Source of the DNA: an uncultured Opitutia bacterium
GTDB lineage: Bacteria; Verrucomicrobiota; Verrucomicrobiia; Opitutales; Opitutaceae
DNA: 54,506 bases
NCBI GenBank assembly: GCA_903896015.1
Contig: CAITWF010000090.1
Location: 1 to 54,506 of the forward strand
Direction of reading: 5' to 3'
Shown here: piece after piece, positions 300-4,494 of the stretch
Layout of the letters: each line of letters begins with the position of its first letter
Numbering within the stretch: the first letter of the stretch is position 1
Position numbers and translations under genes: made by a program
The notes under the pieces: generated by a model
What the model was told of the DNA's origin: nothing
The model's input: only the letters and a program-made list of their open reading frames with translations
Database searches by the model: none

Positions 300-1841
300 T
301 TATTGCGGCCTCCAATGGCTGAAGTTGGCCGAAGCTTTCATCTCGGTCGCGATGAACTTCGCGAAGTCCGCGATCTCACCGTGAACCGAGGCCCTTTCGA
401 GGGCCGCCATGTATTCCCGTCGGCGCCCGAATCTGATCACGGTCCAATTGTAGCCGCCAGAGGCGAGCATGACGTTCATGAGAAATCGACCAATCCGTCC
501 GTTACCGTCAGAATACGGATGAATGAACACGAATACGAAATGACCCAGAACCGCGCGAACCGCCGGAGACGGCTCATTGGCCAGCATCCTAAACAAGGAC
601 TCCATTGAGGCCGGAACTGCTTCCGTCGCGGGAGGGACGTGTTCGGAGTTGAGGATGAAGACGCGGCGTTCGCGGTAACCCGCCAGTGCGGCCGGCGGCA
701 GAATGTTCGCCTGCACCGACGGGCTGAAAAGAGCACGATACCATCCCTGCAGATCGCGATCCACGATCCGCCCTGGGGCGTGGCCCCGCCAGAGATCGCC
801 GAGACTCGTTAGAACAGTCTTGAATGCCGCCCGGTAGCCTTTCGCGGCCATGGCATTAACCTGCTCCTCGTCCTGTGGATTTGCAGAAGGGTTCCAAGAA
901 CCGTCAGCGATGCGTTGAATGAGGTCGGGTGTGACTTGGTATCCCTCTATGGATAGAGAATTGTATGCGTCGTGGGTGTAAATTTCATTCACGCGACGCA
1001 GGTAGACAGACGGATCGGGTCGTGAACTTGGTGGCTGTGGAAAATGCGCCAAAACTTCGAGGCGCATCCGCGCCCACATTGCTTCGACGCGGCCGGCATA
1101 AGGTGAGTCCAAGATGGCTCCGGCTAGGAGGTGGGCCGGTCCTTCAAAAGGGTTCTGTGCTTTGATAACTATTCCGGCGGCGAGCAGGTCAGCTTCGAGC
1201 CGTGACGCGGAGTCGGTAAGGCCAAGATGACGAAGTGCTCCGGCGATCCGTCCGGCGGATGTGACATTGATTGGCCCAGACAATAAAGCACGGGAGAGGT
1301 CCTCAACCCGCACCATCCGAAGCGCGAGTTCGGCAGTCGTGGTAGACTTAGTGTAGTAACTTGGGGTTGTGCGGATCAAAGCGACCGCCAGGGGCATTAC
1401 CTGCAAGCCCTGCTTGGTCGTGGTGACGGGCAGGCCGTTGCGGTCAGGGTAGAGCAGGATTGAGCTACCGTTGGGCAGCTTAAGCGTAAACACGCCGCCG
1501 CGCTTGGTAAGCACGATCAATTGTTTTGGCGTGTGAGTGCTGGCTGTCCAGAGGTCGAGCGAATGCTCGGCAGACAGACAATAACGTTGGCCGTATCGAG
1601 CAGCTAGGTAGTCCGAGACAAAAGACCAAAAGTGCAGGTGCCAGAAGGTCGTATCGCCAGCGCTGGCCTGTGGTGTAACAAGGGTATACCAACCTCTGAT
1701 TATCTCCGCAAGGAACCCCCGGTTCTGGAGAAGCATGCGGGTTCGCCGAGGCAATTGCGTCGAGCGTAGAATGTGCGACGGTGCGGTAGCATGCGCTAGA
1801 CGGAGGGCCTCAGCTAGTTCGCGCTGGATGTCGACGGGCAT
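300..1841 (-). CDS. Fic-domain protein (probable AMP transferase) with AbiEi-like N-terminal region
   Basis: A 513-residue protein. The C-terminal third carries the Fic core motif HPYSDGNGRIGR starting at His441, matching the HxFx(D/E)GNGRxxR signature of enzymes that transfer AMP, or sometimes another phosphate-containing group, to target hydroxyls. About 140 residues earlier lies SLSIEG (Ser295 to Gly300), which fits the (S/T)xxxE(G/N) inhibitory helix. Glu299 would block the nucleotide gamma-phosphate, so this is a self-inhibited (class II arrangement) Fic protein. Residues about 20-55 look like a winged-helix segment. Residues about 70-130, with CLSAEHSLDLW and a following QLIVLTK strand, resemble the AbiEi antitoxin family. 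The N-terminal match is by eye and less certain than the Fic call. No partner gene is adjacent on this strand. Four 23-bp-spaced repeats lie just upstream and suggest autoregulation. The ATG at 1841 has no obvious Shine-Dalgarno sequence. Confidence 0.85.
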   Translation of the reverse strand: MPVDIQRELAEALRLAHATAPSHILRSTQLPRRTRMLLQNRGFLAEIIRGWYTLVTPQASAGDTTFWHLHFWSFVSDYLAARYGQRYCLSAEHSLDLWTASTHTPKQLIVLTKRGGVFTLKLPNGSSILLYPDRNGLPVTTTKQGLQVMPLAVALIRTTPSYYTKSTTTAELALRMVRVEDLSRALLSGPINVTSAGRIAGALRHLGLTDSASRLEADLLAAGIVIKAQNPFEGPAHLLAGAILDSPYAGRVEAMWARMRLEVLAHFPQPPSSRPDPSVYLRRVNEIYTHDAYNSLSIEGYQVTPDLIQRIADGSWNPSANPQDEEQVNAMAAKGYRAAFKTVLTSLGDLWRGHAPGRIVDRDLQGWYRALFSPSVQANILPPAALAGYRERRVFILNSEHVPPATEAVPASMESLFRMLANEPSPAVRAVLGHFVFVFIHPYSDGNGRIGRFLMNVMLASGGYNWTVIRFGRRREYMAALERASVHGEIADFAKFIATEMKASANFSHWRPQ

Positions 1842-1860
1842 GGTGTCAGTAATGAATAAC

Positions 1861-1936
1861 TTTGGTTTGATGTCAAAAGTTGCTTTGGTTTGATGTCAAT
1901 GTTTGCTTTGGTTTAACGCATTAACTTGCTTTGGTT
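1861..1936. repeat. four direct repeats at 23-bp spacing upstream of the Fic gene (putative operator)
   Basis: TTTGGTT occurs at 1861, 1884, 1907 and 1930, exactly 23 bp apart. Copies 2 to 4 share the longer core TTGCTTTGGTT. Copies 1 and 2 are followed by TTGATGTCAA, itself an inverted repeat (TTGA/TCAA); copy 3 is followed by TTAACGCATTAA, also with inverted arms. On the minus strand, copies 1 and 2 each contain a perfect TTGACA (-35-like). The nearer one, at 1871-1876, is 17 nt from ATTACT, only a weak -10. The spacing is close to two helical turns, so a protein could bind all copies on one DNA face. Location 20 to 95 bp from the Fic start codon suggests an operator. Confidence 0.75.
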
Positions 1937-2098
1937 AGCATCGTGCGTCTGGCCGAGGCGACCGCCTCCGAAAACTGCTCTCCACCTCGTATTGTGGCCA
2001 CGAATTGCGCCACCACATCCCCTTTTATTGCGTCACTTGCCACTAGGAGTGCTTCGGGCTAGGCCACCGTCTCGATCAAGATCACCTAGACCAACAAA

Positions 2099-2748: not shown

Positions 2749-4494
<1,746 letters not shown>

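Follow-up and report, generated by a model that had tools for sequence, protein, structure and literature searches.

Among the described systems closest to the locus studied here, AbiEi of the abiE type IV toxin-antitoxin system of Streptococcus agalactiae represses its own operon from 23-bp promoter repeats; these are a pair of inverted repeats separated by 3 bp, one of them containing the −35, and a separate gene encodes the AbiEii toxin (PMC3985639). Rv2827c of Mycobacterium tuberculosis also represses its own operon, and all four 23-bp sites in one promoter are bound, arranged as two inverted pairs in which the sites are 13 bp apart, the pairs themselves being separated by 4 bp (PMC7319586). 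Binding of AbiEi was described as non-cooperative in 2014 (PMC3985639) and as positively cooperative in later work as cited in PMC7319586, where negative cooperativity is given for Rv2827c. CccR of Yersinia pseudotuberculosis is a Fic-HTH protein that represses its own gene (PMC9755527), and BldC of Streptomyces, a winged-HTH protein, lines up head to tail on direct repeats with a 9-bp step (PMC5859096). Work on mycoplasmas treats AbiEi and Fic as separate systems (PMC8562856). The component parts are already known; among the matches listed by our search of the open-access literature there was no paper on AbiEi-Fic fusions or their repeats, nor on the spread of a direct-repeat array with a kept step.

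The locus compared with them lies in a 54,506-nt stretch of DNA from an uncultured Opitutia bacterium (Opitutaceae; contig CAITWF010000090.1 of assembly GCA_903896015.1), the whole of which is called the window here, and consists of a gene for an AbiEi-like/Fic fusion protein (P0001) preceded by a row of repeats (Table 1). As in the AbiEi of S. agalactiae, the N-terminal part of P0001 has a two-domain fold, according to its model, and 23-bp repeats stand before the gene with a −35-like sequence inside a repeat; unlike in the AbiEi system, the repeats are direct and in a row, there is no AbiEii match in the genome, and a Fic domain is part of the same polypeptide. The TAAAAGC of the printed AbiEi half-site also recurs in a Saccharobesus array, a likeness seen by eye that carries no chance estimate. 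Rv2827c shares the fold (Z 10.2) and the number of units, four of 23 bp, but its sites are inverted pairs whereas the window units are direct. CccR likewise joins Fic and a DNA-binding domain in one protein; however, this domain is C-terminal and of HTH type, CccR is a secreted effector (PMC9755527), and its operator consists of two 10-bp inverted repeats separated by a 26-bp spacer, as against the direct repeats of the window. BldC is MerR-like with no enzyme domain (PMC5859096) and offers a mechanistic parallel only.

Predicted Architecture of the Fusion Protein

Only the Fic core of P0001 was matched by Pfam (PF02661, E = 2.9e-13), and both HPYSDGNGRIGR and SLSIEG are intact; Fic proteins with an N-terminal inhibitory helix that carries such a SLSIEG-type motif are termed class II. 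Across 56 homologues of at least 450 residues, the Fic motif (HPFx(D/E)GNGRxxR type) fits its regular expression in 53 (the exceptions being L092, L142, and L144), and the (S/T)xxxE(G/N) inhibitory motif is found N-terminal to the Fic core in 55 (the exception being L139). The PADLOC match to PDC-S24 covers the Fic core only and was not used.

The N-terminal part was modeled from the first 240 residues with an alignment of 24 sequences (mean pLDDT 88.9; four lesser N-terminal models had pLDDT values of 82.1, 72.8, 63.4, and 61.5), and this N-terminal-only model was used in place of a full-length AlphaFold model (mean pLDDT 71), which was set aside as too weak in the N-terminal part. The model consists of a winged helix (helix 32–40, wing strands 44–48 and 51–54) followed by a nucleotidyltransferase-like domain; helix 32–40 would be the recognition helix, a role read from the winged-HTH fold. 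Foldseek placed AbiEi (6y8q, E = 3.2e-4) and Rv2827c (1zel, E = 1.7e-3) at ranks 1 and 2, with modest TM-scores by query length of 0.38 and 0.53, respectively, and VIA-align gave Z-scores of 9.4 for 6y8q (166 residues, 4.6 Å) and 10.2 for 1zel (219 residues, 4.8 Å), the next entry scoring 7.9. AbiEi Pfam models matched neither P0001 nor any of 24 family members, so the link between P0001 and AbiEi rests on fold; a profile-profile comparison with stand-alone AbiEi_4 proteins was weak (probability 25%) and in register at the winged helix. The AbiEi assignment made for the N-terminal domain in the original prediction is thus borne out in the fold of the predicted model and not in Pfam matches. 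The AbiEii toxin profile PF08843 had no match in the whole genome from which the window comes (control matches were obtained in 4 of 14 genomes), and by name AbiEii was found in none of 21 annotated plasmid neighbourhoods, in which hypothetical proteins and gaps in the gene tables remain.

A Phased Array Before the Gene

TTTGGTT had been said to recur four times without drift before the Fic gene, and it does so on the + strand at 1861, 1884, 1907, and 1930, with spacings of 23, 23, and 23 bp. The row adjoins the 5′ side of the gene at 300–1841(−), its cores lying between 19 and 95 bp upstream of the start codon. A repeat search returned 31-nt copies in register at 1860, 1883, and 1906 (likeness 100, 90, and 77%), and the 8-nt core CTTTGGTT is the sole part identical across the four copies, the rest of the unit drifting; written on the coding strand, the best units are TTGACATCAAACCAAAGC/T. 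TTTGGTT by itself is unremarkable (7 occurrences in the window vs. 3.38 expected), whereas the phased stack scored 27 out of 27, and not one of 400 dinucleotide shuffles did as well. Within the 4.96-Mb genome, the tandem pattern CTTTGGTTTN{13,17}CTTTGGTT occurs at this site alone, and a search of the 96-bp array stretch against its own genome gave two further matches only, none of note (E = 1.4 and 5.0); that genome has no second array of this kind. Beyond it, overlapping short ORFs at 2099–2683 fill part of the distance to the next long ORF (2749–4494, RNase G/E-like by eye); they resemble a decayed gene by eye, and three of them gave no Pfam match.

Table 1. Positions in the window of the fusion gene, its predicted domains and motifs, and the candidate operator array.
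Feature	Position	Strand	Basis
AbiEi-like/Fic fusion gene, 513 aa (P0001)	300..1841	−	
N-terminal AbiEi-like part, residues 1–235: winged HTH (~1–58) and nucleotidyltransferase-like domain (~60–220)	1137..1841	−	predicted model
Predicted recognition helix, residues 32–40	1722..1748	−	model
Inhibitory-type motif SLSIEG, residues 295–300, N-terminal to Fic core	942..959	−	
Fic core, PF02661, residues 388–459, with HPYSDGNGRIGR	465..680	−	
Candidate operator array, four head-to-tail units, period 23 bp, core AACCAAAG (coding strand)	1859..1945	−	sequence, shuffle test, array fit
Copy 4 (gene-proximal), core AACCAAAG; TTGACA in 5′ part of unit	1860..1867	−	
Copy 3, core AACCAAAG; TTGACA in 5′ part of unit	1883..1890	−	
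Copy 2, core AACCAAAG	1906..1913	−	
Copy 1, core AACCAAAG	1929..1936	−	
TTGACA, −35-like, unit 4; without consensus −10 partner	1871..1876	−	
TTGACA, −35-like, unit 3	1894..1899	−	

Conservation of the Array in Homologous Loci

Homologues were collected from 252 Opitutaceae genomes, 32 of which have a match to the N-terminal part (weak or broken in G184 and G237), from 387 genomes drawn from the phylum (8 with such a match, 3 of them already known from the family set), and from plasmids, where 79 records match P0001 at E ≤ 1e-30. Twenty-two of these records (21 Pseudomonadota, 1 Bacteroides) were picked for organism spread while their upstream DNA was still unseen. The resulting 58 upstream regions comprise the window, 25 of 28 Opitutaceae loci, L089–L092, six other Verrucomicrobiota, and the 22 plasmid loci, and include kin (L042–L044 are 87–95% alike). 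L058, L060, and L063 were left out for a missing start or upstream region, and the remaining Opitutaceae loci as duplicates of genes already in the set or as cut at contig ends.

In each upstream region the highest-scoring set of three equally spaced 9-nt windows was sought, with all steps from 12 to 40 allowed, and compared with 400 dinucleotide shuffles. A three-copy direct-repeat array was found at p ≤ 0.01 in 43 of the 58, with step 23 in 24 of them, step 24 in 19, and no other step; the 23-bp phasing, for which a comparison with homologous Fic genes had been suggested, is thus kept as a step of 23 or 24. A second finder, working at steps 22–25, called 49 of 58 upstream regions at a threshold that 0.09% of 2320 shuffles reached; at each of five other spacing ranges it called none of the 58. 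In a lag profile pooled over 28 upstream regions, z was 18.3 at lag 23, 9.8 at lag 46, and 6.4 at lag 24. The arrays hold three to five copies.

Fifteen upstream regions missed p ≤ 0.01. Four have mixed steps of 22–24 (L039, L047, L054, and L149), seven have weaker step-23 or -24 arrays (L046, L061, L091, L139, L140, L141, and L148), and two, L127 and L092, show no clear array by any test. In L129 the annotated late start is wrong (p = 0.85) and a step-24 array with a score of 21 appears from the start set by eye; the locus is counted as a miss, and this array carries a score only and no p. The last, L133, has two copies only, by eye. It lies on the Bacteroides thetaiotaomicron plasmid p5482, where the two step-24 copies (of ACGAGTAAATGCACG type, by eye) stand behind a TATTTTTG, which resembles the Bacteroides −7 element. 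In L046/L079 and L129 the codon at the conserved start position is ATT or ATC, and the frame offers no ATG, GTG, or TTG before the upstream stop; these are perhaps rare start codons, or signs of decay. Loss of the Fic motif and loss of the array do not go together, because L144, in which the Fic motif was not found, keeps a clear array, while L092 has lost the D of the motif and has no clear array.

Among other Fic genes that match P0001 in the Fic half only (L016–L036; L015, a short piece 64% identical, was left out), 1 of 21 had an array, with step 40, and stand-alone AbiEi_4 genes had arrays in 0 of 29 (30 loci, one with too little upstream DNA). Because the start codons of control genes were guessed, every in-frame start was tried in both sets, and no step-23 or -24 array was found. 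An inverted-repeat test gave 0 of 58 AbiEi-Fic upstream regions at p ≤ 0.02 and only 4 of 30 stand-alone AbiEi_4 genes, so the contrast between direct and inverted layouts rests on the published operators.

Distribution of Arrays in Genomes

The array is nearly restricted to the AbiEi-Fic family. A sequence-only profile of 23 Opitutaceae arrays, run on the 252 genomes under stringent filtering at the cost of weak matches, gave 26 matches at E ≤ 1.2e-6, of which 22 lie directly before an AbiEi-Fic gene and 4 are relics or strays. Three more matches, with E from 1.6e-5 to 5.5e-4, also stand before AbiEi-Fic genes, and the 18 listed with E from 0.004 to 0.1, including two that are second matches in arrays already counted, are within chance for 252 genomes. 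The original prediction had named two observations that would speak against it, a lack of repeats upstream of close homologues and the same repeats scattered away from Fic genes; it passed on both counts, because homologues keep the phasing and 22 of the 26 strong matches adjoin the gene.

In G001 and G135 the array and the first codons of the gene are followed directly by its 3′ end, and these arrays (L181, G001:C5; L183, G135:C74) are relics of a large internal gene deletion that left the operator behind. The relic in L181 is followed by a DUF6088 gene, which has a weak likeness to AbiEi_4. G050 has a second array ~370 bp before its intact AbiEi-Fic gene, and the stray in G011 consists of two lone copies with no AbiEi-Fic gene in the 3.5 kb covered.

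Changing Core Letters at a Constant Step

A fit of 52 arrays yielded a common part, C-A-n-n-A-A/T-A, which is somewhat flattered because the fit maximised likeness, and then a core whose identity within an array is 0.82–0.98 (columns 12–16). The core differs by lineage (examples are ACCAAAG, AACATAG, ACCTAA, AAGCGAA, AACTTG, AACGTG, TTAGTG, and TGATAA), the period being retained and the letters of the core varying with the lineage of the protein, even inside one genus. Four genera (g7, g17, g19, and g8) hold both main protein clades, and in these all 13 genes counted have the operator type of their protein clade rather than one set by their host, a tally that omits G270 (gene in pieces) and in which L072 and L084 were typed by reading and the rest by pattern. 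Outside these genera the tie between core and protein is looser, L046/L079 and L048 belonging to the ACCAAAG-type protein clade with other cores. Because most of the relatives tested nearly keep the spacing, with letters that often differ, the array is likely the gene's own control switch.

Core distance correlated less with the HTH (0.43) than with the Fic half (0.60) or the remainder of the N-terminal part (0.62). Since even the Fic half outdoes the HTH, covariation does not single out the HTH, and recognition-helix covariation was rejected as a pointer to it; the core tracks the protein as a whole. Such an outcome leaves room for a host regulator, unrelated to the AbiEi-Fic gene, that binds the array, which we nevertheless consider very unlikely given that the array is not scattered over genomes, that genes of one host genus differ in operator type according to their protein clade, and that Pseudomonadota plasmid homologues carry arrays with other letters. 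The natural operator/protein pairs, which share a step and differ in letters, lend themselves to testing winged-helix specificity change and cooperation between neighbours.

Promoter-Like Elements in the Units

TTGACA-type sequences had been placed in two copies of the window array, which is correct because TGTCAA, the coding-strand TTGACA, is found on the + strand at both places (1871–1876 and 1894–1899). In 12 of 13 ACCAAAG-type rows TTGACA has one fixed place in the last copy, and the 13th has GTGACA. A consensus promoter scan of the coding strand of the window array found none, with no −10 partner for TTGACA, and promoter-like pairs occurred in 12 of 58 upstream regions (8 overlapping the array) vs. 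154 of 1160 shuffles, no clear excess. Promoter occlusion by binding to the array, part of the original prediction, may apply and is only partly backed by these sequences. TTGACA inside the units would also suit repeats that serve as promoter or leader elements and have no binder of their own, and plasmids often carry iterons, so that replication iterons come to mind as well. Either we regard as hardly credible: the period stays at 23–24 while the letters change, promoter-like pairs show no clear enrichment, and in bacterial genome contigs too the arrays precede the Fic gene and not a replication gene.

Proposed Autorepression From the Array

We conclude that the array is probably the gene's own cis operator, bound by the encoded AbiEi-like domain for autorepression. 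The N-terminal winged-helix domain would bind one array unit per protomer, with protomers sitting head to tail, presumably in contact with their neighbours, along the DNA before their own start codon, and the bound protein would keep expression of its own gene low. Each unit would combine the common part C-A-n-n-A-A/T-A with a lineage-specific core of ~6 bp (ACCAAAG at the window), the core altering with the protein and the 23/24-bp step staying. At 10.5 bp per turn, 23 or 24 bp amount to 2.2–2.3 helical turns, so successive protomers would be rotated by ~70–100°, and a head-to-tail row winding round the DNA, of the kind that BldC builds with its 9-bp step, would fit better than binding to one face.

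Rows of three to five sites would allow graded reading, and copies 1 and 2 of the window lie upstream of the TTGACA copies, both of which might be expected of a domain that binds the array but mainly activates, or toggles between activation and repression as sites fill. This seems improbable to us, as AbiEi and Rv2827c, the two closest studied proteins in fold, are repressors, as is CccR, and as the last array copy touches the start codon in one protein clade, where bound protein more likely blocks polymerase. If the gene does repress itself from the array, a widespread class of Fic proteins gains a testable control element, laid out head to tail in contrast to the inverted repeats of the two studied AbiEi relatives. 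A further reading, conceivable though unlikely, is that AbiEi-Fic forms a toxin-antitoxin unit from a single gene: the head-to-tail protein row would shut the promoter and hold the fused Fic enzymes inactive, and loss of the row, e.g., on phage attack or plasmid loss, would free expression and AMPylation; the array would then act as a safety catch made of DNA and represent an operator mode new to the AbiEi fold.

In L099 (G017:C54:4914-5054) the AbiEi_4 match of a stand-alone gene starts ~540 bp behind an AbiEi-Fic match. On the Aminobacter plasmid pSR7 (L135), the AbiEi-Fic gene is immediately preceded, in the same orientation, by another gene annotated as Fic family.
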